DNA from: Octadecabacter sp. B2R22
GTDB lineage: Bacteria; Pseudomonadota; Alphaproteobacteria; Rhodobacterales; Rhodobacteraceae
Direction of reading: 5' to 3'
NCBI RefSeq assembly: GCF_018861045.1
Contig: NZ_JAHKQJ010000002.1
Span: 124,001 to 188,000, forward strand
DNA: 64,000 nucleotides
A model generated the notes under the pieces. It was not told the origin of the DNA, searched no databases, and was given only the letters and a program-made list of their open reading frames with translations. This document shows, in pieces, positions 2-13,390 of the stretch. Position 1 is the first letter of the stretch, and the number at the start of each line of letters is the position of its first letter. The position numbers were made by a program, and so were the translations under genes.

Positions 2-748
2 CTCTCGTCCAGCTATATCGCAGGGGATGTACCGGGTCTCAGGTTGTTTGACATTCCGTTCGCGTCTTTGGACCGTGCAGAGGCATTCGCCGTGTTAGAT
101 AACGTTCTAGAGACGTGGTTCCGGCATGAGGTCGAAGCGAATACCGGCCTTGTTATGCTTGGCATTTGGGACAATGGCGTACGGCACATGTCGACCGCCA
201 ATCGCCCTTTGCACAGCCCTGAAAACTGCCAAGGGTTGAAGCTGCGCACTCTTCCAAACGATGACCACCAGAACGTTTTCCGGTCTCTCGGGTTTGACCC
301 CAAAGTGATCGACGCCAAAGACCTTTCAGACGCTGTTGCAAACGGTGATGTTGACGCTCAAGAAAACCCCCTGACCAACACTTTGAACTTCGGCCTACAC
401 AAGACGTTGCCGACGATCACACTGACCGGTCATCTCATGGGAATTGCGCTGGTCCTGTTCAATCGCGAGGTGTTCCAATCTTGGCCGAAAGACATTCAGG
501 CCATCGTTGCCCAAGCCGTGGATGAAGCCAGCAAAGTGCAACGTTCCCTTGCCCTTCAAGAGGACGAGGCGTGTAAGCGTACGTTGAACGATCAGGGTGC
601 AGAGTTCATTGAGCTGACCGCCGATCAACGTGCATCTTGGCGGGCTGCAACCCAATCTGAAAGAACAAGAATTCAAGCTGAAATTGATCCGGACCTGCTT
701 GCTAAATTCAACGCAAGCGTGTGCCCGGCAGAAAGTGTGATAGCATGA
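2..748 (+). CDS. TRAP transporter solute-binding protein (DctP family), 5' truncated by window edge
   Basis: This is the C-terminal part of a periplasmic DctP-type binding protein of a TRAP transporter. The frame is open from base 2, so the gene begins upstream of the window; the first ATG-like codon inside is only an internal TTG. Family features are the GIWDNGVRHMST stretch (usual G-GFR/RH-TN), the following GLKLRTLPND segment that carries the ligand carboxylate-binding region, and the helical C-terminus. The substrate is probably a carboxylate, but the residues do not let me name it. The next genes encode a tripartite tricarboxylate (Tct) system rather than DctQ/DctM, so its membrane partners must lie upstream or elsewhere. 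Confidence 0.85.
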   Translation, partial: LSSSYIAGDVPGLRLFDIPFASLDRAEAFAVLDNVLETWFRHEVEANTGLVMLGIWDNGVRHMSTANRPLHSPENCQGLKLRTLPNDDHQNVFRSLGFDPKVIDAKDLSDAVANGDVDAQENPLTNTLNFGLHKTLPTITLTGHLMGIALVLFNREVFQSWPKDIQAIVAQAVDEASKVQRSLALQEDEACKRTLNDQGAEFIELTADQRASWRAATQSERTRIQAEIDPDLLAKFNASVCPAESVIA

Positions 749-1379: not shown

Positions 1380-2864
1380 ATGTTTGATTTATTTACCGAA
1401 GGCTTCGCAATGGCGATGCGCTTCGACACCATGGCACTAATGAGTATTGGCCTGTTCGCGGGCATGCTTGTTGGATCATTGCCTGGTTTCACAACCCTTA
1501 TGGCAATGGCGATCCTCTTGCCGATTTCGTTCTTCCTTGAACCAATCGTAGGCATTCCATTCCTGTTGGGTATCTACAAAGGTGGTATCTTTGGGGGCAG
1601 TGTTCCCGCCATCCTGATCTCGATGCCGGGCACCGGCGCTGCGGTTGCAACTTCTCGTGATGGCTACAAGCTGACCCAACAGGGTAAGTCACGCAAAGCG
1701 CTTGATATCGCGCTGTTCTCATCCGTCTTCGGGGACACAGCGAGTGATATTTTCACCATCCTCATGATGTTCCCAATTGCCTTCTTGGTTATGCAATTCG
1801 GCCCACCAGAACTGTTCGCAGTTCTTCTCATGAGCTTGATCATCATCGCGGCCACATCGGGTGCTAATCCACTCAAAAGCCTAATCATGATGATGTTGGG
1901 TCTATGGCTGTCATTCATCGGAACGGACCCCCTTGGCGGTGTTGAAAGGTTCACGTTCGGCTTGTTTGAACTGAAATCAGGTATACCGTTGTTGCCAATG
2001 TTGATCGGTGTCTTTGCTTTGCCAGAAGTTGCCAATGTCATCATCCGTAATGAGAAAAGCCGGAAGCTTGCGGCCCTCGTCGGTGAACGTCTGACACGTG
2101 CAGAATTCACCCGGTGTTTGCCGACAATCTGTCGTTCTACGGTGATTGGTACAGGGATCGGCATCGTACCGGGTCTTGGCCAGATCGTAGCTGCGATGAT
2201 GGGCTACACGGCTGCCAAGAACGCATCCAAACACCCTGAAACTTTTGGTGAAGGTGAAATCGAAGGCGTTGCCGCAGCCGAGGCTGCCAACAATGCCGTG
2301 AACGGACCAACAATGGTACCGCTCCTGACGCTCGGCATCCCAGGGGACAACGTAACGGCTATTCTTTTGGGCGCGTTTGTTGCTCAGGGGTTGCGGCCCG
2401 GACCGCAGTTGTTCGAAGAGCAGGGCGCAACCGTGTTCGCCATTCTCATTGCTATGGTCATTGCGAACTTGTTGTTCCTCGTGATCGGTTATCTTTCGAT
2501 CCCGTTTTTCTCCAAGATTGTGACCATCAAGACATCCATCTTGATCCCGATGGTGATCATGTTCGCCTTTGCCGGCACATACGTGTTCCGTTCCGACCCA
2601 ACTGACCTTCTTATCCTTGTTGCTTTTGGGGTTTTCGGGATCGTCGCCAAGGCAGCCAAGTTCGATGTCATGCCGATGGTAATGGGCTTCATTCTTGGGC
2701 CATCGATGGAATACGCCTTCGGCCAGACCGCCGCCATGTCAAATGGGAACCCTCTTGGTTTCTTCCTGACAGATCGGTTCGGCGCACTGGGGGTTTTGAT
2801 CGCCGCACCAATCATTGGTTACCTACTGTGGAAACGTCTCTACGGTCGTTCAGCCAATACCTAA
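1380..2864 (+). CDS. tctA: Tripartite tricarboxylate transporter large permease (TctA)
   Basis: The 494-residue protein has the length and sequence hallmarks of TctA: the N-terminal GMLVGSLPGFTTLMAMAILL segment, the repeated glycine/proline-rich IVPGLGQIVAAMMGYTAAK loop, and the NNAVNGPTMVPLLTLGIPGD motif. About ten to twelve membrane segments are visible. It is the ion-coupled translocation subunit that receives substrate from TctC. It lies between tctB and tctC with short gaps, so the three are almost certainly one transcript. Confidence 0.92.
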   Translation: MFDLFTEGFAMAMRFDTMALMSIGLFAGMLVGSLPGFTTLMAMAILLPISFFLEPIVGIPFLLGIYKGGIFGGSVPAILISMPGTGAAVATSRDGYKLTQQGKSRKALDIALFSSVFGDTASDIFTILMMFPIAFLVMQFGPPELFAVLLMSLIIIAATSGANPLKSLIMMMLGLWLSFIGTDPLGGVERFTFGLFELKSGIPLLPMLIGVFALPEVANVIIRNEKSRKLAALVGERLTRAEFTRCLPTICRSTVIGTGIGIVPGLGQIVAAMMGYTAAKNASKHPETFGEGEIEGVAAAEAANNAVNGPTMVPLLTLGIPGDNVTAILLGAFVAQGLRPGPQLFEEQGATVFAILIAMVIANLLFLVIGYLSIPFFSKIVTIKTSILIPMVIMFAFAGTYVFRSDPTDLLILVAFGVFGIVAKAAKFDVMPMVMGFILGPSMEYAFGQTAAMSNGNPLGFFLTDRFGALGVLIAAPIIGYLLWKRLYGRSANT

Positions 2865-2925
2865 ACTCACCGGAACGGCGCAGGGAGGCGCCGTTCCACA
2901 AAACTCAACCAAAGGGAGAACTTCA

Positions 2926-3897
2926 ATGTTGAGAAACTTCGCAAAGAAATCAGTAGCCGTAGCGGCACTGGCAGGCGCGTCCGTCGTGGCAAGCATGTCA
3001 CCTGCACTGGCCGAGTATCCGGAAAAGCCAATTACGATGGTTATTCCGCTCGGCGCTGGCGGCTCGCATGACTTGAACGCGCGCGTCATCACATCGATCA
3101 TTCCAACGTACCTTGAACAGGCGATGATCGTTCGTTTGACACCAGGTGCTGGTGGTCAGAAAGGCACGCAAGAAGTCGCGAACGCTCCGGCTGACGGTTA
3201 TACGCTGCTGTTTACGCACAACTACATTGATCAGCTGCAGCAGCACGTTGAAAACCTGCCTTACGATCCACTTGAGGATTTCGTGACCGTTGCGCGCGTG
3301 AACTATGCGCCAATCGCAGTCACAGTTCGTGCGGATAGCCCATACCAGACATTCGAAGATCTGGTTGAAGCCTCCAAGGCGAATCCGGGTGGCATTCAAA
3401 TGGCACACTCTGGGAACTGGGGCGCATTGTTCGTACCGGCTGCGCAGATGATGCAGGCGCTCGATATGTCTTGGAACCTCGTTCCATACCAAGGTGGCGG
3501 GCCAGCTTTGCAGGCGCTGCTGAGTGGTGATGCGGATGTAACGATGGGCTTCCCATCCTCACTCGCTAGCCATCTGGATGCCGGCACTGTTCGCATCCTC
3601 GCAACGGCCGGTCCTGAGCGTATCTACGACGACGTTCCAACATTCGCCGAAGTTGGCGTTGAAGGCGACGTGGGCTTCATGCACCGTGTTGTTCTTGCTC
3701 CTGCTGGGACGCCTGATGACGTTCTTGAAATGCTGGGCGAGGCGTTCACAGCGCTTGGCGAAGACACCACATTTACACGCATGATGGGTCGCCTTGGCGA
3801 GAACATCGATATCATCGGTACGGATGAATACGATGCGATGCGTGCCGAACAAAGCGGTGCGTACGAAGTGCTGGTGCAGGAATTGACATCCCAGTAA
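2926..3897 (+). CDS. tctC: Tripartite tricarboxylate transporter substrate-binding protein (TctC/Bug family)
   Basis: A 323-residue periplasmic binding protein. ATG 2926 starts a clear Sec signal peptide (MLRNFAKKSVAVAALAG, cleavage near SPALA-EYPEKP) and has a GGGAG ribosome site; the longer open frame upstream overlaps tctA and lacks a signal. Bug-family features are the mature start YPEKPITMVIPLGAGGSHD, the KANPGGIQMAHSGN segment and the LVPYQGGGPALQALLSGDAD motif. Bug proteins bind carboxylates through main-chain and water contacts in the two conserved loops, so the ligand is not predictable. It is the last gene before a strong terminator. Confidence 0.9.
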   Translation: MLRNFAKKSVAVAALAGASVVASMSPALAEYPEKPITMVIPLGAGGSHDLNARVITSIIPTYLEQAMIVRLTPGAGGQKGTQEVANAPADGYTLLFTHNYIDQLQQHVENLPYDPLEDFVTVARVNYAPIAVTVRADSPYQTFEDLVEASKANPGGIQMAHSGNWGALFVPAAQMMQALDMSWNLVPYQGGGPALQALLSGDADVTMGFPSSLASHLDAGTVRILATAGPERIYDDVPTFAEVGVEGDVGFMHRVVLAPAGTPDDVLEMLGEAFTALGEDTTFTRMMGRLGENIDIIGTDEYDAMRAEQSGAYEVLVQELTSQ

Positions 3898-3937: not shown

Positions 3938-3971
3938 GCGCCGGACAGATTGTCCGGCGCTTTCTGCTTTT
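3938..3971 (+). terminator. Rho-independent terminator of the tct operon
   Basis: A perfect 10-bp inverted repeat (GCGCCGGACA, loop GAT, TGTCCGGCGC) at 3938-3960 is followed by TTTCTGCTTTT. It starts 40 bases after the tctC stop. The T-rich tail is on the plus side, so it serves tctC; it lies just before the stop of the convergent Ldh2-type gene. Confidence 0.85.
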
Positions 3972-5025
3972 AGGTCAACGGCTCGACGCTTAGTTCCACC
4001 GCCAGCTCGGACAGTTTTTCACGCAGCGGGGCGGGGATCGGTATCCCATTCTGCGAACGTTCCTGCGTAGTTCGGTCCAGACGTTCCCCCGGAAGGCGTA
4101 TTTCGTCGACACCAGGCAAATGGTCGGATGATTTCATTTGCCGCCAGACATCATCGATGTTTTTGCGAAACGCGGTCGGGTCGGCAAAGGCCGCGATGTC
4201 CAATGCCAGAATGACATGTCCCGTATTCGTGACGCTTGTGGCATCGGCGTTGAAATCAACGACATCTTTGCCGAACGCCGCACCGTTCAAGACCCCCGCA
4301 AGTATTCCGAAAATAAGAGACAGCCCATATCCTTTAGCCCCGCCAATCGGCAGCAAGAACCCCTCAGACGAACGCGTCGGATCCGTCAAGGGATTGCCGT
4401 CGCGATCGATCATCCAACCTTCTGGCATTTGCTCGCCTCTTTGGGCTGCGGTTTTAACCTTTCCGTAAGCCGCCACCGTGGTGGCCATGTCCAGAACAAT
4501 GGGCGGAAAATCCTGCGATGGAAGCGCAACAGCAATTGGGTTCGTCGACAGCAACATGTCTGTCCCACCCCATGGTGGCATGTGGTTTGCGCTGCCCACC
4601 GCCAAGTATAGCCCGATCATATTCTCACGCGCTGGCATCATCGCATAAAGCGACGCTGGACCCGCGTGATTAGAATGCCGCGCTCCAACCCAAGCCACGC
4701 CAGTTGTCCGCGCTTTTTCCATCGCCAACTCGGTGGCGTGTTGCATGACAAGGTGCCCAAGGCCATTGTCCCCGTCGATCAATGCCGTGGCGGGGCGATC
4801 TGATAAAACTTTGAAGTTGGGCGTCATATTCATGCCGCCAGAACGGATTCTTTTGATATACATAGGAAGGCGAAAGACGCCGTGTCCGTCCTGTCCCATC
4901 ACGTCGGCCTGAGCCATCAGGTGGGCGGCTTTTTCCGCGTCAGATTGCGGCATGCCGCAAGACATCAGGCAGCGCGCGATAAAGCTACGCAGGTCGGAAA
5001 AGGTTACTTTGGATGCATTGGGCAT
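3970..5025 (-). CDS. Malate/L-lactate dehydrogenase-family (Ldh2) NAD(P)-dependent oxidoreductase
   Basis: The 351-residue protein belongs to the Ldh2 family, whose members reduce 2-keto acids such as 2,3-diketo-L-gulonate, sulfopyruvate, ureidoglycolate or delta-1-piperideine-2-carboxylate. The diagnostic DVMGQDGHGVFRLP motif (catalytic His) lies near residues 42-55, and the ARHSNHAGPASLYAM segment and the GGAKGYGLSLIFGILAG motif follow. The start ATG 5025 has a GGAG site (AACTCGGAGTCTTT). It is divergent from the cupin gene with only 32 bp between start codons, and convergent with tctC. Its place beside transporter and sugar-acid genes suggests a role in the same catabolic route, but the exact substrate is unknown. 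Confidence 0.8.
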   Translation of the reverse strand: MPNASKVTFSDLRSFIARCLMSCGMPQSDAEKAAHLMAQADVMGQDGHGVFRLPMYIKRIRSGGMNMTPNFKVLSDRPATALIDGDNGLGHLVMQHATELAMEKARTTGVAWVGARHSNHAGPASLYAMMPARENMIGLYLAVGSANHMPPWGGTDMLLSTNPIAVALPSQDFPPIVLDMATTVAAYGKVKTAAQRGEQMPEGWMIDRDGNPLTDPTRSSEGFLLPIGGAKGYGLSLIFGILAGVLNGAAFGKDVVDFNADATSVTNTGHVILALDIAAFADPTAFRKNIDDVWRQMKSSDHLPGVDEIRLPGERLDRTTQERSQNGIPIPAPLREKLSELAVELSVEPLT

Positions 5026-5057
5026 AAAGACTCCGAGTTTAGGAAATGAGGGAAAAG

Positions 5058-5495
5058 ATGACAGCAGAGATCACTCAAACGGGAACTAAAACGACAGCTG
5101 GCGTCGTGGTGCGATACGATGACATCACCCCATTCGCGCGGGGGGATCTGGTCGAAACGCGATTGATGATCGGAAAGGCTGCCAGTGAAGGCGCGCCTTT
5201 TACGACCGGGACGACGATCTTTCCCGCCGGAAGCGCAGCTCCGCTGCACTCGCATAATTGTGCCGAGCAAGTCACCATTCTGTCGGGATCTGCGGAGGCA
5301 ATGATCGGCGGTGACGTTGTTCAGCTTGGCCCGATGGACACGAGCTTTGTGCCGGCAGATGTTCCGCATTACTTTCGAAACACCGGGACTGGGCCGCTGA
5401 CAATCTTGTGGATTTACGGCGCCCGCGAGGTAACCCGTACCTTTGTCGAGACTGGCGAAACGGTTGCGCATATGTCGCCTCGTGATCAGGTTTGA
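5058..5495 (+). CDS. Small cupin-domain protein
   Basis: A 145-residue single-domain cupin. Cupin motif 1 is visible as PLHSHNCAEQVTILSGSAEAMIGG (metal-type His-x-His and Glu) and motif 2 as PHYFRNTGTGPLTILWIYG. Such proteins act as isomerases, dioxygenases or binding proteins; no specific reaction can be assigned. I prefer ATG 5058, which has AGGG upstream at about 7 bases, over the in-frame ATG 5046. The gene shares a very short divergent promoter region with the Ldh2-type gene and lies just upstream of the GntR regulator. Confidence 0.75.
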   Translation: MTAEITQTGTKTTAGVVVRYDDITPFARGDLVETRLMIGKAASEGAPFTTGTTIFPAGSAAPLHSHNCAEQVTILSGSAEAMIGGDVVQLGPMDTSFVPADVPHYFRNTGTGPLTILWIYGAREVTRTFVETGETVAHMSPRDQV

Positions 5496-5524
5496 CAGTA
5501 ACCCATTTGCTGGTTTTCCAATGA

Positions 5525-5534
5525 TGGTTGACCA
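5525..5534. promoter_or_regulatory. Candidate GntR (FadR/UxuR-type) operator 1
   Basis: TGGTTGACCA is a perfect TGGT-N2-ACCA palindrome, the core seen in UxuR/ExuR-like operators. It lies between the cupin stop and the GntR regulator start. The same core recurs at 5645, 11004 and 11135. Confidence 0.55.
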
Positions 5535-5615
5535 AGCACAATACGGGTTGGCCTTTGGCCGCTGCCATCCCGAAAGTATAGCAACATAAGCCCTAGTAAA
5601 AAAGGGAATATCATG

Positions 5616-5646
5616 AAAGTTTGTGCCGAAATTCGGGGCAAACTTT
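5616..5646. promoter_or_regulatory. 31-bp imperfect palindrome upstream of the GntR gene
   Basis: Arms 5616-5630 and 5632-5646 match at 13 of 15 positions around a single central A (AAAGTTTGTGCCGAA and TTCGGGGCAAACTTT). It ends ten bases before the chosen start codon and abuts the TTGGTAAACCAA site. As RNA it could fold, but no T-run follows, so an operator role is likelier than a terminator. Confidence 0.45.
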
Positions 5647-5656
5647 GGTAAACCAA
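5645..5656. promoter_or_regulatory. Candidate GntR operator 2 (autoregulation)
   Basis: TTGGTAAACCAA has arms TTGGT and ACCAA around AA and its last base is the A of the GntR start codon. Binding here would block initiation, consistent with self-repression. Confidence 0.5.
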
Positions 5657-6342
5657 TGCAAGATAAGACTCTCGCAAGAATGCGCAGCTGGGTTTCGGGA
5701 TCTGGGCTAGCAAAAGGAGGCCGCCTTCCCTCGGAGCGGGCACTCTGTAGTGAACTTGGTGTAAGCCGCGCCGACCTGCGCAAAGCGCTCCTCGTTCTTG
5801 AGGCAGAAGGCATTTTGGATCGTCATGTGGGGCGGGGAACCTACCTATCAAAAACCGTGCGCCAGACCAGAAATGGCGCGGGTCTTGATCGCGCGATTGC
5901 TGAGTTGGCCGAAAGCACGGGACCGCTTGACGCGATGAATGCGCGACTGCTCCTCGAACCTGAAATTGCACAGCTCGCTGCGCTGCACGCAACGCCCTCG
6001 CAGTTACGTGAATTAAGCAGGTTATCTGCCTCTATGCGCGAGGCGACAAACTGGAAGGCCTACGAAAACCTCGATCGGGATTTCCACGAACTCATCGCCG
6101 CAGCATCGGGCAATACCCTGTTGGAAGCATTGCACAAAATGCTCAACGGGGTGCGTCTGATTGTTGTGTGGAGACGGCTCGATACGTCTGACCTTGGCCC
6201 TGATCCAAGCTATCATTCCTTTGGCGAACACGATGCAATTGTGACGGCGTTAGAAACGCGCGATGCCGCTGCGGCGGGGTCTGCAATGCGAGGGCATTTG
6301 GAAACCACGCGGGCAATGATGACCCATTCGGCCAATTCTTAA
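5656..6342 (+). CDS. GntR-family transcriptional regulator (FadR/FCD subfamily)
   Basis: A 228-residue regulator with an N-terminal winged helix (GGRLPSERALCSELGVSRAD, then LEAEGILDRHVGRGTYL, residues about 18-70) and an all-helical FCD ligand-binding domain (ARLLLEPEIAQLAA, then DRDFHELIAAASGNTLLEAL, with His residues that usually bind a metal and an organic acid). ATG 5656 is preferred to GTG 5623: the latter lies inside a 31-bp palindrome and gives an atypically long N-terminus. FCD regulators usually respond to sugar acids or other carboxylates. The four TGGT-N2-ACCA sites around this island suggest it controls the genes from 5.0 to 13.4 kb. Confidence 0.85.
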   Translation: MQDKTLARMRSWVSGSGLAKGGRLPSERALCSELGVSRADLRKALLVLEAEGILDRHVGRGTYLSKTVRQTRNGAGLDRAIAELAESTGPLDAMNARLLLEPEIAQLAALHATPSQLRELSRLSASMREATNWKAYENLDRDFHELIAAASGNTLLEALHKMLNGVRLIVVWRRLDTSDLGPDPSYHSFGEHDAIVTALETRDAAAAGSAMRGHLETTRAMMTHSANS

Positions 6343-6447
6343 CGAGACACTTCAGCAGAACTCATAGCGACCATCAGCAAAACTTGTTTGCTCCAAAAGG
6401 GGGGCATTCCTAGATTGATCAATAGTTTAAACATGATGGGAGTTAAG

Positions 6448-7533
6448 ATGCGACAGGTTGAAGTGGCCGTAATCGGTACAGGCTGGTGCGGTGGAATGCG
6501 CGCTGAATCTCTGGCAAAATCGGCTCTCGTGGATAAGCTCCATATTTGTGAAGTGCGCCCAGAGCGCCTGCAAGAAATGAAAGAGCTGACCAACCCTGCA
6601 TCTGCTACGGCTGACTATCAGGATATCGTGCGCAATCCGGCAATCGAAGTCGTGTATATCTCTACAACGCCCGAACCGACACATTACCCAATTGCCCGCG
6701 ATTGCCTGAAAGCCGGTAAGCACGTCTTGCTGGAAAAGCCGATTGCGATGGAATTGGCTGAGGCAGATGATTTGATCGCGATTGCCCGCGAAAAAGGTGT
6801 GAAATTCACAATCGGCTATTCGCAACGGTTCAATCCGAAGATTGCCTACGCCAAGAAAGCGATCGCTGAAGGTAAGCTGGGTAAGGTCGTGAACGTCATG
6901 GTGAGCCGTCATTTGTCGCGCAGCCTTGGATCGCGAATTGCGGGGCGGGTCAAGCTGTCACCAGCGGCTATGGAATCTACCCATGATCTGGATTTCGTCT
7001 ATTGGTTGCTGGATGCCAAACCGGTCAGGGTCTACTCGCAAGGGGCCTATGGTTTTATGGAAAAGCTTAACGGGTCCTATGATTGCATGTGGAACACCGT
7101 GAACATGGACAATGGCACTTTGGTTGTGGTCGGCGGGGGCTGGAATTTGCCACCTAGCTACCCGAATTACTGCGCGACTTGGATCGAAATCACAGGCACC
7201 GAAGGGTCGTTGATCCTTGATGACACATCACGGGACAACTGGCTTAACACCGTCGAAGGGGCGACCCAGTTCCCGATGTCGACCATGCCGGGTGAACATC
7301 TTGACCACATGTATGCAGGGCAGATGGGGCCGGAGACGCTGCATTTCCTTGAATCCGTTCTGTTGGACAACGAACCTGTAGTGTCGGCTGAACATGCGCG
7401 CATGGTTATGGAAAGCTATCTGGCTGCTGATATTTCGGCCAAGATTGGCGATCCTGTGGATCTTCCTCTTTCAAATCACTCGATGGCGATTCTGGCGGAC
7501 ATGATCGACGCCAATAAGCGCGAGGCAAGTTGA
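6448..7533 (+). CDS. Gfo/Idh/MocA-family NAD(P)-dependent oxidoreductase
   Basis: The 361-residue protein has an N-terminal Rossmann fold (VAVIGTGWCGGMRAESLA) and the family signature LKAGKHVLLEKPIAMELAEA with the catalytic EKP lysine near residue 95, then a substrate domain with the THDLDFVYWLLDAKP motif carrying the conserved Asp/His region. The family oxidises cyclic polyols and sugars such as inositol. ATG 6448 has a GGGAG site 5 bases upstream; longer starts lack one. Its stop overlaps the TTG start of the next dehydrogenase, so the two are translationally coupled. The substrate is probably a sugar or sugar acid in the GntR-controlled route. Confidence 0.85.
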   Translation: MRQVEVAVIGTGWCGGMRAESLAKSALVDKLHICEVRPERLQEMKELTNPASATADYQDIVRNPAIEVVYISTTPEPTHYPIARDCLKAGKHVLLEKPIAMELAEADDLIAIAREKGVKFTIGYSQRFNPKIAYAKKAIAEGKLGKVVNVMVSRHLSRSLGSRIAGRVKLSPAAMESTHDLDFVYWLLDAKPVRVYSQGAYGFMEKLNGSYDCMWNTVNMDNGTLVVVGGGWNLPPSYPNYCATWIEITGTEGSLILDDTSRDNWLNTVEGATQFPMSTMPGEHLDHMYAGQMGPETLHFLESVLLDNEPVVSAEHARMVMESYLAADISAKIGDPVDLPLSNHSMAILADMIDANKREAS

Positions 7534-8381
7534 CTTCGGTTGGCATATTTGGCCTCGGCCTGATTGGCAGTGCCCTCGGTCAGCGGCTCATTGAACAGGG
7601 GTATACCCCTTGTGGATTTGATCCGTCCGAGGAACGCCGCGCGAAACTCACGGAGATGGGGGGCGTGGCGTCCTCTGGACAAGATGTTTGGGCTTCGGAT
7701 GTTGTCTTTTCTTGCGTGTTCGACACCGATCAGCTTGCAGATCTGATTGATGCGGCTCCGTCTTGCGACAGTATCCTCGTCTCGCTCAGCACCTGTGATC
7801 CTGAACGCATGGAGGGTTTGGCGGGCGTCGCTGCAGCGAAGGGCATCACCTTAGTTGAATCGCCGATTTCGGGCACCAGCGGTGCGCTCGCCAAAGGCGA
7901 AGTCTTACTTTTGGTGGCGGGCGGGGATGGGGTCATGCCACAACTCGAACCGCTTCTGAACGCAGTATCTCAACAGTTCATTCACGTCGGAGACATCGGA
8001 AACGGTAACCGCGCAAAGCTCGCAATCAATCTGGTGCTTGGACTCAATCGCGCGGCCATGGCAGAAGGCATTGCCTACGCCGAAGCGATCGGCCTGAAGG
8101 GCGCGGATTTTCTGACATTGGCCCGCGCTTCTGCCGCGCATTCACGAGCGATGGATTCCAAAGGGGATCAAATGGTCCAGCGCGCGTTCGAGCCCCAAGG
8201 CCGCATCGTCCAGTCCGCCAAAGACTTTGCGTTGATCCAGCAAAGCGCCGCTGCCGCAGGGCAGGGGCTGCCGTTTGCCGCGACCTATTTAGCCATGATG
8301 CAAGACGCGCTCGACAACGGAGAGGGCGATCTGGACAATTCGGCTATCCTCTTGCCGATTGCACGCACCCCGCCTGCGTAA
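7530..8381 (+). CDS. 3-hydroxyisobutyrate/6-phosphogluconate dehydrogenase-family protein
   Basis: A 283-residue beta-hydroxyacid dehydrogenase. The Rossmann motif VGIFGLGLIGSALG is at the N-terminus, the substrate-binding VESPISGTSGALAKGEVLLLVAGG (family DAPVSGG) is near residue 110, and the catalytic lysine region NGNRAKLAINLVL is near residue 165. It begins at TTG 7530, overlapping the previous stop (TTGA), with GAGG upstream. Members act on hydroxyisobutyrate, tartronate semialdehyde, D-threonate-type acids and similar C3-C4 acids. It is the last plus-strand gene before a convergent operon. Confidence 0.82.
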   Translation: MTSVGIFGLGLIGSALGQRLIEQGYTPCGFDPSEERRAKLTEMGGVASSGQDVWASDVVFSCVFDTDQLADLIDAAPSCDSILVSLSTCDPERMEGLAGVAAAKGITLVESPISGTSGALAKGEVLLLVAGGDGVMPQLEPLLNAVSQQFIHVGDIGNGNRAKLAINLVLGLNRAAMAEGIAYAEAIGLKGADFLTLARASAAHSRAMDSKGDQMVQRAFEPQGRIVQSAKDFALIQQSAAAAGQGLPFAATYLAMMQDALDNGEGDLDNSAILLPIARTPPA

Positions 8382-8406
8382 CCTTAGTCCGTCGCGAGCG
8401 GTCGTT

Positions 8407-8862
8407 TTAGACCTTTAACCGAATGCTATCGGGCACATCCAAGGGCGCGTTCTCTCCGTCGATAAATTCGACGGTAGCAAAGATTAGCTCGGTATCGCCA
8501 ATGTTTTCAACGGAATGCACCATGTGATCACCCGCGCCATAGTTGAAATGCTTTGTCTCGCCTTGGTAGTGTTCAACATCGCGGATTTCGCCCGAGGAGA
8601 AATACCCTCGCGCCTCTCCTGCGACCAAAGCAGTCCAAAAATATCGGTTCACATGGCGATGAAACCTGCATCGTTTTCCTGGGGCAATCCGCAGATGCCA
8701 CACCCGCATGGTTTCCGTTTCGGAGACCAGTTGGGACCCGACGCACCCGTTATTAATATCCTGCTGCATTTCTTCATAGAGCCCGTCAGGCCAATGGGAA
8801 AAGGCCAATGGGTCTGGGTTGATGACCACATGATCGGGTCCGTGATGTGATGTCTGTGACAT
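8407..8862 (-). CDS. Cupin-domain protein
   Basis: A 151-residue cupin read on the minus strand. Motif 1 is CRFHRHVNRYFWTALVAGEA and motif 2 is HMVHSVENIGDTELIFATVE. An AGGAGAC ribosome site precedes ATG 8862. It is the third gene of a minus-strand operon (alcohol dehydrogenase, DHDPS-family aldolase, cupin) with about 20 bp to the aldolase. It is only distantly similar to the other cupin at 5.1 kb, so the two are unlikely to be recent duplicates. The reaction is unknown. Confidence 0.7.
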   Translation of the reverse strand: MSQTSHHGPDHVVINPDPLAFSHWPDGLYEEMQQDINNGCVGSQLVSETETMRVWHLRIAPGKRCRFHRHVNRYFWTALVAGEARGYFSSGEIRDVEHYQGETKHFNYGAGDHMVHSVENIGDTELIFATVEFIDGENAPLDVPDSIRLKV

Positions 8863-8883
8863 TTCAGGTCTCCTGTTATGATC

Positions 8884-9795
8884 TTAGCTGGAAGAAAGTG
8901 AAGCCAAGTCGGCCTTCAGATTTGCCTTTTGATCCGCCGTGAGCGGCAACAGCGGCGGCTGCATCTGCAACCAGCTGTCATCCCCACTGCGCCATGCCTC
9001 GGCGGTTTTCATGGCGGCCATCAATGGATATTTCCCAGCCACGGCCCTTGCCTTTCGAACGGCGTCCATCTTGGTGTCTCGTGCCGGACCTTCACTCGCT
9101 TGACGAGCGTCTTGGACCTTATTGGCAAAGATGTTGGTCGATCCCGAAATAATGCCAGCACTGCCGATCGAAAGCCCGTCCCATAAGAAAGCCTCGGACG
9201 AAGGATATACATCAAAGTCCTGATCAATCCCGCCCGTGGCGTCGATGAAAGCGCGAGATTGTTCGAAGTCACCGCTGCTGTCTTTCAGCCCAGCAATGAT
9301 CGGGCCGAATTCAGCACGCAGCTTTAGGACCAGATCAACAGACAATGGCACCTGAGACATTTGAGGGAAGTGATAAAGGTAGACGCGTAAATCGTCGCGG
9401 CCGACCAGTTCAATCAGCTTGGCATAGTACGCGAACAACCCCTCGTCAGAGGGAGACTTGTAGTAATAGGGCGGTAGCACAAGGGCGTTTGTATACCCTG
9501 CATCGCAGGCCGCACGGGTCAAAGCGACGGCATCCAGAAGGGATGGCGCGCCAGTGCCAAAGATAACGCGATCGGTTTCGATGTTGGCTTTTGCAAAAGC
9601 GGCGGGCAGGGCCAGACGGTCGGCCATTCCAACGGATGTACCTTCTCCGGTGGTGCCCGTGGGTGCGACACCGTCGCAACCGCCATCGGACAAAAGGTGT
9701 GTGCAGTAGTCGACTAGTTTTGCGTGATTGAGGCTGCCATCCGGTTGGAACGGAGAAACAGCGGCGGCATAAATGCCGCGTCTAGCTTTGGTCAT
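8884..9795 (-). CDS. Dihydrodipicolinate synthase/N-acetylneuraminate lyase-family aldolase
   Basis: The 303-residue protein has the DHDPS-family barrel: GVAPTGTTGEGTSVGMADRL (family G-x-x-GTTGE), the tyrosine region VYLYHFPQMSQVPLS, and the Schiff-base lysine in IIAGLKDSSGDFEQS near residue 165. Such enzymes cleave or dehydrate 2-keto acids by a lysine imine, for example 2-keto-3-deoxy sugar acids. ATG 9795 is chosen because the protein then begins MTKARRGIYAAAVSPF as in homologues; upstream frame overlaps the dehydrogenase gene. In this catabolic setting a keto-deoxy sugar-acid aldolase or dehydratase is likelier than lysine biosynthesis. Confidence 0.85.
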   Translation of the reverse strand: MTKARRGIYAAAVSPFQPDGSLNHAKLVDYCTHLLSDGGCDGVAPTGTTGEGTSVGMADRLALPAAFAKANIETDRVIFGTGAPSLLDAVALTRAACDAGYTNALVLPPYYYKSPSDEGLFAYYAKLIELVGRDDLRVYLYHFPQMSQVPLSVDLVLKLRAEFGPIIAGLKDSSGDFEQSRAFIDATGGIDQDFDVYPSSEAFLWDGLSIGSAGIISGSTNIFANKVQDARQASEGPARDTKMDAVRKARAVAGKYPLMAAMKTAEAWRSGDDSWLQMQPPLLPLTADQKANLKADLASLSSS

Positions 9796-9811
9796 TGTGG
9801 GGTCCTTGCGT

Positions 9812-10981
9812 TCATTTTGATTTTGCACCGCCAGTGACGCCCGGCTTGGTGGACACCACGACCTTGATCGCGTCATCAATCCGTTCGCGCGCATATTTCA
9901 GTGCCGTTGGCAGGTCTTCCAGCGGGAAGGTGTGGGTGTGAATAAGGCTGGCATCAAAGCGACCCGCAGCCATGAAGGCCATTGCGCGATGGGTGGCCGA
10001 TTTGCCTTCGCCGCGGATGCCGTAGAGGTAGATATTATTGACGGCCAATGCGCCCAGATTGAACGAAACTGCGGATTTCGGGAACGCTGCAAGGCAGATG
10101 CGCCCACCACGGTTTGTCATTTCGACGGCTTGGTTAACTGTGGCCTCGGTGCCGGCGCAATCAACGACATAGTCGGCCCCTTTTCCGGTCAATTCTTTGA
10201 CGCGGGCGACGACATCTTCGTTTCGGGCATCGATGACATGATCCGCACCAAGCTTGCTGCCAATCGCATTACGGCTTTCGCGCGTGCCGACAAGAACCAC
10301 AGGAGATGCACCAAGGGCCTTTGCGACGGCGACTGCCAGCAAGCCAATCGGCCCCGGCCCAATCACAACGACGCTTTCGCCCGCCACAAGCCCGCCCAGT
10401 TCCGTCAGGCCATACATTGACGTGCCTGCGGTCACCACAAGGGTGGCTTCCTCATCAGACATGTCGTCAGGGACACGTATCATCGTGTTGATATTGTTGA
10501 CCGCATATTCGGCAAACCCACCGTCGGTGGTGAACCCGTTCGCGCGGTGGCCTTTGTCATGGTCGCCATAGTTCAGACCGTAGTTGTGGCAGGAGGTATA
10601 CATGCCCATGCGGCAGCGTTTGCACTGCCCGCAACCTGCGTGAATCTCGACGGTCACGCGGTCGCCCACTTCGAATTCATCAACACCCGGCCCCAATGCG
10701 GCCACCGTGCCCATGTACTCGTGCCCTGGGGTGTAATTCTTGTTGAAGGGCGATCCGCCTTCGATCAACGCGGGCGTTCCATAGGAGATGATTTCAAGAT
10801 CGGTTGCACAGATGGCGACCGCATCAATCCGCACAAGAACCTCAGCTCGGTTCGGCTTGGGCGTTGGCTTTTCGATTAGTTTCAGCTCGTCAGGGTCGCC
10901 AAGGACCCAAGCCCGCATCGTCGATGGGACGTCATCCCCTAAGCCGTTCAATTCTTGCTGGTGTGTTGCCGCTGTGTTCAT
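9812..10981 (-). CDS. Zinc-dependent alcohol dehydrogenase (sorbitol/threonine dehydrogenase-like)
   Basis: A 389-residue medium-chain dehydrogenase. Zinc-site motifs are visible: AICATDLEI, TPGHEYMGTVAALGPGVDEF (GHE) and a structural zinc loop CGQCKRCRMGMYTSC; the nucleotide fold is VVIGPGPIGLLAVAVAKALG. ATG 10981 is preceded by GAGGAAAACGCA. It is the first gene of the minus-strand operon with the aldolase and cupin, facing the AhpD-like gene across a 426-bp region that holds two GntR-type operators. It probably oxidises a polyol or sugar alcohol in the same route; the exact substrate is not visible. Confidence 0.85.
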   Translation of the reverse strand: MNTAATHQQELNGLGDDVPSTMRAWVLGDPDELKLIEKPTPKPNRAEVLVRIDAVAICATDLEIISYGTPALIEGGSPFNKNYTPGHEYMGTVAALGPGVDEFEVGDRVTVEIHAGCGQCKRCRMGMYTSCHNYGLNYGDHDKGHRANGFTTDGGFAEYAVNNINTMIRVPDDMSDEEATLVVTAGTSMYGLTELGGLVAGESVVVIGPGPIGLLAVAVAKALGASPVVLVGTRESRNAIGSKLGADHVIDARNEDVVARVKELTGKGADYVVDCAGTEATVNQAVEMTNRGGRICLAAFPKSAVSFNLGALAVNNIYLYGIRGEGKSATHRAMAFMAAGRFDASLIHTHTFPLEDLPTALKYARERIDDAIKVVVSTKPGVTGGAKSK

Positions 10982-11003
10982 TGCGTTTTCCTCGCTAGAT
11001 TAA

Positions 11004-11013
11004 TGGTGGACCA
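11004..11013. promoter_or_regulatory. Candidate GntR operator 3
   Basis: TGGTGGACCA, a perfect TGGT-N2-ACCA palindrome 23 bases upstream of the zinc dehydrogenase start. A second half-like CATGGTCAACC follows at about 11021. Confidence 0.5.
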
Positions 11014-11134
11014 ATTTGAACATGGTCAACCGAATCTCTTCACCCGTTATCAACGGAATAAATTGCACTTTGCAATAAAAATAATGATGTTTTCGGTAGA
11101 GCGTGTGCGCTTTGCGTGCCTAAAGGGCAGTTAG

Positions 11135-11148
11135 ATTGGTTGACCAAT
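11135..11148. promoter_or_regulatory. Candidate GntR operator 4 (best match)
   Basis: ATTGGTTGACCAAT has perfect 6-bp arms around TG. It matches the ATTGGT-N2-ACCAAT core of UxuR/ExuR-type operators and is the longest of the four sites in the island. Confidence 0.6.
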
Positions 11149-11407
11149 AGGGTGATCCTGGTCATCAGGGAAACTGATGCAGGCCATTAGGAAGTATGTT
11201 TTCGTGGATTGATCCGCCCTCGCTACGGTTCTCTCGGGTTGAGAGGGTGGTTGGATCAACGGTTGAGCGGCCAATGCCTAAATCGACGTCACCATTGGCG
11301 ACAGCCGCGCATCACTTTCGAATATTACGATGGGCGCACGGACCGCGCGACGTGGTTGCACCAGATGGTGAACACCACAAAACAACGATGAAACTGGGAG
11401 ATCGACA

Positions 11408-12064
11408 ATGACACAGAGACTGACTGGCAAGAGCCACGAAGAAGCAACCGGAACCGCGAAATTGATTTTTGAGGCGTCCGACAGGTTTCTTGGTCGAACC
11501 GCAAACCTTCAGCGTATTCTGGCGACACATAGCCCGTATCTGGCCCGATGGTTTGGCGGTTTGGTTGCCTCTGTTCGCCAGCCTGACTTGGGGGCGACAA
11601 CCGATCCGCGCCTAAGAGGATTGGCCTGCATCAAGACGTCGATGGTCAATGCTTGCGAATATTGCACATCCCACACGTCGGTCTTCGGTCAGGGGCTTGG
11701 GATTTCGGAAGAAGAACTCGAAGCGATGATGGACGATGGTTACAAGACCAACCCGCTCTTTAATGACCGTGATCGCGCGGCGATCGCATGGTCCGAGGCG
11801 ATGACACAGAACACCGCCCAGCGCGACAAAGCGACATGGGAAAACATGAAGGCCAACTTTACCGACACGGAAATCGTCGAAATTTCGATGGCCTGCGCCT
11901 TGTTCAACATGATCAACCGCCTCAACGACAGCTTTTGGACGGATCTTGAATCGGTTGAGTACAATCAAAAGCAGTGGAACGCGGTGGATGGTCTCTCCAT
12001 TGAAGAAATCGAAGCCTATGCAGGCAGCTTTGCTTCGGTTGGTGCTGCGGAACGCGGCGTTTAA
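11408..12064 (+). CDS. AhpD-like/carboxymuconolactone decarboxylase-family protein
   Basis: A 218-residue helical protein. The MVNACEYCTSHTSVFG segment near residue 80 carries the CxxC-plus-His centre of AhpD-like peroxidases, and the surrounding helices fit the CMD fold. ATG 11408 has GGGAG about 9 bases upstream. Such proteins reduce peroxides or act as decarboxylases and often accompany catabolic dehydrogenases. It opens a plus-strand operon with the SDR and Dabb genes downstream of operators 3 and 4. Confidence 0.75.
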   Translation: MTQRLTGKSHEEATGTAKLIFEASDRFLGRTANLQRILATHSPYLARWFGGLVASVRQPDLGATTDPRLRGLACIKTSMVNACEYCTSHTSVFGQGLGISEEELEAMMDDGYKTNPLFNDRDRAAIAWSEAMTQNTAQRDKATWENMKANFTDTEIVEISMACALFNMINRLNDSFWTDLESVEYNQKQWNAVDGLSIEEIEAYAGSFASVGAAERGV

Positions 12065-12220
12065 CGGGCGTCTTACCTTAGTCGCTCTCTTTGCCGTGGT
12101 CTCTCGACAAGGCATTGAAATTCGCGTCATTGTCTCCCGAGTCCGGCCGTCCCACCTTCGTGTGGGGCGGTATGGATTGTGACGCCATTTTCAAAGATGC
12201 TCTTTCTGGGAGGGAACAAT

Positions 12221-12988
12221 ATGCAGTCTCAATTGAACGCCGCACCTACGGATTTAACAGGCAAAGTGTGCCTTGTCACAGGGGCCGCTGGCGGGATTGG
12301 CCTTAGTGCTGTTTTGCATTTTGCGGCTCTTGGGGCGACGGTCTACGCAACAGATATTGCTGATACGTTCGACGGGCCCGCCAGCTATCGACCATTCAAC
12401 CTGTTGGACGAAGCAGGCCTTTCGGAGTGCACGGATTGGATCTCCGAAATTAAGCCGGACGTGTTGTTCAACAACGCTGCCATCTTTGACATGGGGTCTG
12501 TTCTAGAGGCTGATCTTGCACAGTTTGATCGCCTGTTCGGCCTCAACGTGCGTGCGTTTTATGCCGTCCTTCAAGCAAGCGCCAAGTCTATGGTCGCCAA
12601 CAGTCAGACCGGTTCCATTATCAACCTAGCGTCCCAAGCAGGCCATCGCGGTGAGGCCTTGGTCGCCCATTACTGCGCCACCAAAGCCGCGGTCATCAGC
12701 TATACGCAATCGGCAGCACTCGCGCTTGCGCCCCATAAGGTGCGTGTAAATGCCATTAGTCCGGGGGTGATCGATACGCCGATGTGGAAAGATGTTGATG
12801 CGTTGTTTGCCAAGTTCGAAGGTAAAGAGATCGGTCAAAAGAAACGCGAAGTCGGTGAGGCCGTTCCTCTTGGGCATATGGGTGATCCTTCTGATGTTGC
12901 CCGCGCCGCAGTTTTCCTCGCTAGTGATCAGTCGTCCTATATGACGGCTCAAACCATCGGGATTGACGGCGGCAACGTGCTGAGGTGA
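12221..12988 (+). CDS. Short-chain dehydrogenase/reductase (polyol/sugar dehydrogenase-like)
   Basis: A 255-residue classical SDR. Cofactor motif VCLVTGAAGGIGLSA, NNAA at about residue 90, catalytic Ser in IINLASQAGH, and YCATK (Tyr-x-x-x-Lys) near residue 155 are all present, followed by RVNAISPGVIDTPMW, which resembles sorbitol/galactitol-type dehydrogenases. ATG 12221 has GGAGGG 8 bases upstream; the longer open frame starting at 12179 lacks one. It is separated from the AhpD-like gene by 156 bp that include a short GC hairpin, so it may have its own promoter. Confidence 0.85.
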   Translation: MQSQLNAAPTDLTGKVCLVTGAAGGIGLSAVLHFAALGATVYATDIADTFDGPASYRPFNLLDEAGLSECTDWISEIKPDVLFNNAAIFDMGSVLEADLAQFDRLFGLNVRAFYAVLQASAKSMVANSQTGSIINLASQAGHRGEALVAHYCATKAAVISYTQSAALALAPHKVRVNAISPGVIDTPMWKDVDALFAKFEGKEIGQKKREVGEAVPLGHMGDPSDVARAAVFLASDQSSYMTAQTIGIDGGNVLR

Positions 12989-13096
12989 TGAAACTCGGGC
13001 CGAGTCTGACCTTGGCTATTGCCCCCTTGAAACCGCGACAGGACTGAGACACATGTGGCATAGCTCTCGTTGTCCCATTTGGTAGGTGCCAATCCC

Positions 13097-13390
13097 GTGA
13101 CCCAAAGATCATTCATTCGCCATGTTGTGCTGTTCAGTGCAAAGGACCAAGCCGATGTAACCCGCATCCGTGACGGGTTGTCGATGCTGGCTGGCATTCC
13201 GCATTCGTCCCTGTTCGAAGTGGTTGAAAACAGCCGCGCGGATGCGCTGTCCGGCGAAATTGATGTCGTTGTCTATGCCGAGTTCAAAGACAGCGCCGCA
13301 TTGGCCGCCTATAAGGCCGACCCGATTTATCAGAAGGCGATTGAGGTCGTGCGCCCCTTGCGCGACATGCGGATCGCTGCTGACTTTTGA
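13097..13390 (+). CDS. Dabb (stress-responsive alpha/beta-barrel) domain protein
   Basis: A protein of about 97 residues with the Dabb pattern: FIRHVVLFSAKDQ at the start, VVYAEFKDSAALAAYKADPIY in the middle and a final short strand. Dabb proteins are small dimeric ferredoxin-like folds, some of which are isomerases or cyclases. The start is uncertain: GTG 13097 has an AGGTG upstream, TTG 13070 does not. Its TGA overlaps the proposed TTG start of pabB, suggesting coupling, though the two functions are not obviously linked. Confidence 0.6.
   Translation: MTQRSFIRHVVLFSAKDQADVTRIRDGLSMLAGIPHSSLFEVVENSRADALSGEIDVVVYAEFKDSAALAAYKADPIYQKAIEVVRPLRDMRIAADF

Follow-up and report, generated by a model that had tools for sequence, protein, structure and literature searches.

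In the 64,000-nucleotide stretch of the Octadecabacter sp. B2R22 genome analyzed here (contig NZ_JAHKQJ010000002.1, positions 124,001 to 188,000; "the window"), the gene gntR for a FadR-subfamily transcription factor is linked to catabolic genes for dehydrogenases, a DHDPS-family aldolase/lyase, and small cupins, and this island contains four TGGT-N2-ACCA palindromes, O1 to O4, which are conserved together with the regulator. Taken as a whole, the explanation that we consider likely is that of a local GntR regulon inside a larger carboxylate pathway of the Rhodobacteraceae. Its regulatory part is of a known kind and well supported by sequence comparison. FadR-subfamily GntR most likely represses itself and the local regulon, and very probably this single FCD-type GntR encoded in the island reads all four sites.

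The regulator GntR and its putative operators

All four palindromes were confirmed where the original prediction had seen them, and they are the only TGGT-N2-ACCA sequences in the window (four found, 0.85 expected; 1 of 100 shuffles reached four). O1 (TGGTTGACCA, 5525-5534) lies 131 bp before the start of gntR, O2 (TGGTAAACCA, 5646-5655) abuts the gntR start codon at 5656 and belongs to the longer palindrome TTGGTAAACCAA (5645-5656), O3 (TGGTGGACCA, 11004-11013) is situated upstream of an operon for a zinc-dependent dehydrogenase (ZnADH), the DHDPS-family enzyme, and the cupin Cup2 (ZnADH-DHDPS-cup2), and O4 (core 11137-11146 of ATTGGTTGACCAAT, 11135-11148) lies between this operon and a divergent one for an AhpD/carboxymuconolactone-decarboxylase-like protein (CMD), an SDR oxidoreductase, and a Dabb protein (CMD-SDR-Dabb). 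The expectation that the sites mark the starts of three transcription units is only loosely right: O1 and O2 both precede gntR, neither cup1 (5046-5495) nor Ldh2 has its own site, and the distance from O4 (11137) to the CMD gene is about 270 bp. With a weight matrix, O2 to O4 score 17.8-23.5, O4 being the highest of the four, and O1 scores 8.4, the best background match (14.6-64 kb of the window) reaching 11.9. A weak extra site at 11018 was rejected, as it is not kept in the close relative Octadecabacter algicola D2-3 (G008; the source genome is G000).

Throughout the 3.3-Mb source genome the pattern occurs 46 times, versus 55 times for a reversed-pattern control, so the bare 10-mer is not enriched. 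The original prediction had named a random rate elsewhere in the genome as a finding against itself; such a rate is literally what was found, yet a regulon confined to this locus is compatible with it, and the clustering of four sites in 5.6 kb has a simulated p of 0.00256 (any such cluster among 46 random sites). The remaining 42 genomic sites comprise 41 inside open reading frames (ORFs) and one intergenic site, as judged by a greedy ORF caller for which some ORFs are possibly spurious and which also covers the gntR upstream region with spurious ORFs. By this caller, the sole other intergenic site (G000:C7:584637) is located directly upstream of a response-regulator gene, presumably CtrA-like judging from its start.

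The island protein encoded at 5656-6342 (forward strand; ORF open from 5623) is a FadR-subfamily GntR of 228 amino acids, with the Pfam domains GntR (PF00392) and FCD (PF07729) both above gathering score. Residues D140, H144, H192, and H214 of its FCD domain are invariant in 8 sequences, an aspartate together with three histidines being the typical metal/carboxylate-binding set of such domains. A structure model obtained with seven sequences has a mean pLDDT of 87.9, and its best PDB matches are FadR-type GntR-family regulators with TM-scores near 0.5. None of the NCBIfam equivalogs was reached, NanR (91.6 bits) and LldR (89 bits) remaining far under their cut-offs. The assignment to the UxuR/ExuR type is not supported either, with scores of 76.7 of 442 bits for UxuR (NF007588) and 77.6 of 396 bits for ExuR (NF008571); moreover, the N2 spacing invoked for it is not specific, as PMC4494728 gives N2 for UxuR and several other regulators, and N3 for ExuR.

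When regulator orthologs were defined as GntRs of at least 50% identity and 220 bp upstream were considered, a site was present upstream of gntR in 10/10 orthologous loci found, and in this sense the motif travels with the single FCD-type controller that had been proposed. The first seven of these loci (gntR 50-100% identical) contain 23 sites, versus 1.8 expected at the genome rate, and three orthologs fetched after the pattern had been set (G287, G319, and G225) all have sites at gntR; G287 had been picked because of a site 14.6 kb away in L153, its gntR region being unseen at that time. A site also precedes ZnADH in eight of the nine loci holding this gene, one and the same site being counted for both genes in divergent layouts. 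In L198 the site is about 230 bp away and thus outside the 220-bp cut, and the L197 contig ends before ZnADH.

As a control, 33 loci of the wider gene set without the regulator in the stretch were examined, none of them from a genome shown to hold the regulator at 50% identity. No site was found in 350 upstream regions of recurrent genes (those shorter than 150 bp were left out), and the 588 kb of these loci contain 7 sites versus 7.5 expected. A first control set had consisted of 36 loci with 8 sites (8.1 expected), from which L153, L157, and L160 were dropped because their genomes hold the regulator elsewhere; the site lost in this way, L153:15497, is placed like a promoter element ahead of CMD-TctCBA and thus speaks in favor of the model. 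L156 is in neither set, as it adjoins the regulator locus of G164, and its one site is the one seen again at L200:4688, before a TctC gene. Because whole-genome regulator searches covered 18 genomes in one scan and 148 in another, most control genomes were not searched whole.

Between the source genome and O. algicola, the only locus found in a genome-contig scan, the palindrome cores are identical; O1 and O3 differ in the N2 spacer only, and the flanks of O4 have diverged. Core conservation of O1 and O2 in this pair is weak evidence, because that stretch is 95% identical. On a broader scale, 16 of 41 GntR homologs tested have TTGGT-N2-ACCAA (at most one mismatch) upstream, namely 6/7 close orthologs and 10/34 homologs of lower similarity. 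In these ten, a sister clade of GntRs 37-40% identical, the motif always lies at -47 to -54. The motif therefore belongs to a regulator clade and not to the pathway. In G285, two perfect TTGGTCAACCAA sites 131 bp apart (L199:9702 and 9833) occur on another contig than the GntR island, upstream of a 270-aa ORF with a signal-like N-terminus (by eye), and this pair is a possible trans target.

What surprises most is that one operator lies right at the start codon. In 6/10 loci the gntR ATG is directly abutted by a perfect 10-mer (ACCAATG), i.e., in G000, G008, G319, G208, G287, and G225, the last being counted if the ATG next to the site is accepted as its start (reassigned by eye). G012 has a perfect palindrome at the same place, but with the codon AAG and an in-frame ATG upstream; the corresponding sequence has one mismatch in G164 and two in G003 (counted by eye), and G285 has none. 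A further site at -124 to -156 is present in 8/10 loci, seven besides that of the source genome with its O1 at -131. By eye, no Shine-Dalgarno-like stretch was seen close before the six gntR starts, and therefore it is a reasonable inference that the gntR message might be leaderless with the operator over its promoter -10 region. A 12-codon ORF (5613-5651, ATG at 5613), preceded by a GGGA stretch and with its TAA inside O2 four bases before the gntR ATG, is a possible upstream ORF.

According to PMC4494728, when a divergon of the FadR subfamily contains two sites, each of them may act on the operon closer to it, a rule that O3 (11004) and O4 (11137) would fit. The genes behind the sites vary among genomes: a glutathione-transferase-like gene takes the place of CMD-SDR-Dabb behind the second operator in G003 and G285, G003 and G287 also have sites before a CMD-TctCBA operon, and G164 has sites before DctP-TctBAC and before another TctC gene. 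The leader between O4 and CMD (11150-11407) is well conserved between the two Octadecabacter genomes and contains a perfect CATCAG/CTGATG hairpin; it has no Rfam match, and its fold (z -0.72) is not better than those of shuffles.

Island genes and their wider neighborhood

ZnADH and DHDPS are the most constant partners of gntR, being found in 9/10 loci, the tenth (L197) ending before them. ZnADH (9812-10981, reverse strand), a zinc-dependent alcohol/polyol-type dehydrogenase by Pfam, is 83-97% identical in eight orthologous loci and resembles Tdh and IolM in NCBIfam without reaching the cut-off of either L-threonine 3-dehydrogenase (TIGR00692; 211.5 bits, cut-off 458.35) or scyllo-inosose 3-dehydrogenase IolM (205.7 of 450 bits). 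The DHDPS-family aldolase/lyase (PF00701, 125 bits) is encoded at 8884-9795 and cup2 at 8407-8862, both on the reverse strand. Cup2 is a 151-aa cupin by its structure model (pLDDT 94.7), serves as marker of the wider gene set, has no Pfam family at E≤0.001, and finds the AzcA cupin as best PDB match; a function as beta-diketone dioxygenase like Dke1 was dropped, as the latter is not among the PDB matches listed. On the other side, the forward-strand genes for CMD (11408-12064; PF02627), the SDR oxidoreductase (12221-12988; L-iditol 2-dehydrogenase-like, 293 of 338 bits), and the Dabb (stress-responsive A/B barrel) protein (13070-13390; PF07876) follow each other.

Downstream of gntR, and also on the forward strand, Pfam identifies a Gfo/Idh/MocA oxidoreductase (6448-7533), IolG-like at 134.6 of 355 bits and thus below the inositol 2-dehydrogenase cut-off, and a beta-hydroxyacid dehydrogenase of the HIBADH/tartronate semialdehyde reductase superfamily (7530-8381), for which NCBIfam equivalogs are below cut-off. 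Upstream of gntR, cup1 (forward strand) codes for a small Cupin_2 protein (PF07883) and Ldh2 (3970-5025, reverse strand) for an Ldh_2 family dehydrogenase (PF02615, 387 bits) with sub-threshold similarity to L-sulfolactate and ureidoglycolate dehydrogenases of NCBIfam. Among the matches listed, none of the ten island proteins scanned (Dabb was not among them) is at an NCBIfam equivalog cut-off. Variable across GntR loci are Ldh2, cup1, Gfo/Idh, HIBADH, quinone-reductase-like and glutathione transferase genes, and those for TctABC or TRAP transporters.

At the left edge of the window, and on the forward strand, a tripartite tricarboxylate transporter is encoded by genes for the small membrane subunit TctB (825-1343), the large membrane subunit TctA (1380-2864; 80-99% identical in L046, L097, L099, L196, and L197), and a TctC-type solute-binding protein (2815-3897, true start probably near 2926). 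These are named by eye from gene order and, for TctB and TctC, homologs. Adjoining TctBAC, the 3' part of a gene for a DctP-family protein (Pfam DctP; 2-748, forward strand) belongs to L047:11795-12748, which starts about 205 bases upstream of the window. It has no evident signal peptide; its five homologs are 36-90% identical, and of six sequences aligned, four begin with the first strand or no more than a few residues from it, whereas two have an unrelated ORF-called extension of about 25 residues. The start at or near the first strand therefore suggests a cytosolic role for this DctP-fold protein.

Upstream of the window, the source genome encodes on both strands AEC, OsmC, Gfo/Idh, a PcaD-like hydrolase, LysR, BKACE, a flavin reductase, and a luciferase-like monooxygenase (LLM). 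The reductase passes the cut-off for p-hydroxyphenylacetate-hydroxylase reductase (391.8 of 340 bits), and the closest solved relative of the LLM is 3,6-diketocamphane monooxygenase (92 bits). Among 394 genomes of the family, cup2 occurs in 30, the LLM in 32, and both in 22 versus 2.4 expected; in 17 of these 22 they are on one contig within 20 kb. The LLM is present in all seven GntR-ortholog genomes of the sample, three of which were picked from the LLM list itself. ZnADH and DHDPS are part of a larger mosaic of genes that also holds TctABC and, in many cases, LLM, flavin reductase, and PcaD-like hydrolase, and this composition suggests an oxygen-dependent opening of a cyclic carboxylate. 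In a second type of locus, cup2 is found beside molybdenum hydroxylase subunits and a flavin adenine dinucleotide (FAD) monooxygenase, for which 2,6-dihydroxypyridine hydroxylase is the only PDB match at the chosen cut-off. For this reason we regard a cyclic carboxylate, perhaps an N-heterocyclic one, as a slightly better candidate substrate than a plain sugar acid.

Neither the libraries nor the literature searched provided a characterized route for this recurrent gene set, in agreement with what had been stated before; no paper on the cluster was found in that literature, and plasmid records of relatives gave gene contexts but no characterized pathway. On plasmid pS26_248 of Phaeobacter piscinae (L145), a ZnADH 73% identical is part of a different operon with xanthine-dehydrogenase-like, IolD-like thiamine pyrophosphate (TPP) enzyme, aldehyde dehydrogenase, IlvD/Edd, and TctABC genes.

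Proposed mechanism and alternative explanations

With regard to binding, repression, inducer, and chemistry, we infer the following. A GntR dimer would bind ATTGGT-N2-ACCAAT-like palindromes. Without inducer it would occupy O2 directly at the gntR start, O1 some 130 bp further upstream, and O3 and O4 in the divergent ZnADH/CMD intergenic region. Three units would thereby be repressed, namely gntR together with Gfo/Idh-HIBADH, ZnADH-DHDPS-cup2, and CMD-SDR-Dabb. By analogy with the family, GntR might be released when its FCD domain binds a carboxylate intermediate at the conserved Asp/His3 metal site. The controlled genes would be one module of a larger Rhodobacteraceae pathway in which TctABC imports a carboxylated, probably cyclic compound, dehydrogenases oxidize it, in many genomes LLM, reductase, and PcaD-like hydrolase open the ring, and the DHDPS-family enzyme then cleaves the oxo-acid product. 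As the TctABC operon, Ldh2, and LLM block of the source genome have no credible site by weight matrix, nor any degenerate one before AEC or OsmC, the regulon is smaller than the pathway; that the LysR gene controls these three is a guess.

Several observations weigh against this explanation, among them the missing sites just mentioned. The two Octadecabacter loci are near-identical and not independent among the ten, O1 scores below the best background match, the 10-mer does not exceed its control in the genome, and no sigma-70-like promoter was recognized near any site, promoter counts being at shuffle level. Also, 10/32 LLM genomes are without a cup2 match and 8/30 cup2 genomes without an LLM match, many cup2/LLM loci do not have this GntR, ZnADH, and DHDPS, and cup2 is present in only 7/10 GntR loci, not being found in L196-L198 though queried. 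The pathway reading thus joins genes that are only partly linked. Genome-wide counts, the weak O1, and the lack of a recognized promoter are what one would expect if the palindromes were chance matches of a short common motif with no regulatory role, but sites at matching positions in 10/10 orthologous loci, 0/350 in control upstreams, and an O3 that differs from its O. algicola counterpart in the spacer only make this highly improbable. It is also quite improbable that functional sites are read by a different FadR-subfamily paralog sharing the motif, or by several regulators: the sister clade does use the motif upstream of its own genes, and in G208 a perfect site closely precedes the gene of a paralog 42% identical, but the next GntR of the source genome among the matches listed is distant (E 3.7e-15, 33% identity), the only other intergenic site there precedes the response-regulator gene, and across genera the sites track this ortholog.

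For the substrate, a sugar acid or polyol had been proposed, and dehydrogenases of sugar/polyol superfamilies as well as an N2 spacing like that of UxuR (PMC4494728) would fit a regulon of the UxuR/ExuR type. We consider this unlikely, given the missed UxuR and ExuR cut-offs, the recurrent linkage to flavin monooxygenase and reductase, and the fact that the families identified for the island proteins include no sugar kinase, isomerase, or aldonate dehydratase and the matches listed no sugar-acid-specific family at cut-off; what stands behind it are sub-threshold family similarities, and the wider conserved neighborhood points to an LLM-opened cyclic carboxylate at least as well. Improbable, too, is a cyclitol-type ring degraded via a cyclic diketone by an IolM-like ZnADH, with cleavage enzymes differing by host. 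Gfo/Idh is nearest to IolG, and ZnADH scores with IolM close behind Tdh. The pS26_248 ZnADH stands beside a TPP enzyme that matches IolD best among families (166.5 of 715 bits), and a ZnADH 58% identical is encoded on a Thermus plasmid near a gene of the creatininase family, to which IolN belongs. However, every match is far under its family cut-off, ZnADH scores slightly higher with L-threonine 3-dehydrogenase than with IolM, and the Thermus gene scores higher with two other creatininase models than with IolN.

Returning to the local GntR regulon, the earlier interpretation as a whole is partly supported. Doubtful is a more elaborate version in which the island would be one module of an undescribed mosaic Rhodobacteraceae pathway, with a two-component LLM opening a carboxylated, possibly N-containing ring, Cup2 as an enzyme shared with 2,6-dihydroxypyridine-hydroxylase-like FAD monooxygenases and molybdenum hydroxylases, participation of a cytosolic DctP-fold protein, and autoregulation of the regulator through an operator that overlaps the site where translation of its probably leaderless mRNA begins. 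Regulator, operator, and target genes recur together across genera within one family and can be tested as a unit, and inducer screening of the FCD protein is an entry point to this uncharacterized catabolic set that could reveal the substrate. If a linked LLM pathway exists, about 1 in 18 sampled family genomes (22/394 with both markers) may share an unknown carbon or nitrogen source.

Comparison with known systems

The pairing of Gfo/Idh with a zinc dehydrogenase is reminiscent of the IolG/IolM inositol route (TIGR04380, NF041097), from which the island differs by its low scores (134.6/355 and 205.7/450 bits), by its DHDPS aldolase and TctABC, and by having no inositol-specific family above cut-off. 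The LLM is of the same family as two-component enzymes such as 3,6-diketocamphane 1,6-monooxygenase (PDB 4uwm) and has a flavin reductase gene next to it (L047:3803-5868, upstream of the window), but the similarity is 92 bits only and the LLM gene lies outside the island and without GntR site. Among PDB entries, the AzcA cupin (9u8n/9u8o) matches Cup2 best both in structure and by profile, although Cup2 is shorter and identity is 26% over about 97 columns.

According to PMC4494728, the FadR-subfamily operator consensus is a TKGT/ACMA palindrome. Its spacing is N3 for ExuR but N2 for several other members, including GntR, HpxS, HypR, MdcY, PrpR, and UxuR, and such a palindrome near the own gene is found at 10/10 orthologous loci. 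As described there for N2 regulators, the island GntR combines GntR and FCD domains with a 2-nt spacer, local operons, and double sites in divergons. In contrast to them it reaches no curated equivalog cut-off, is associated with a different gene set, and has, in 6/10 genomes, an operator on its own start codon.

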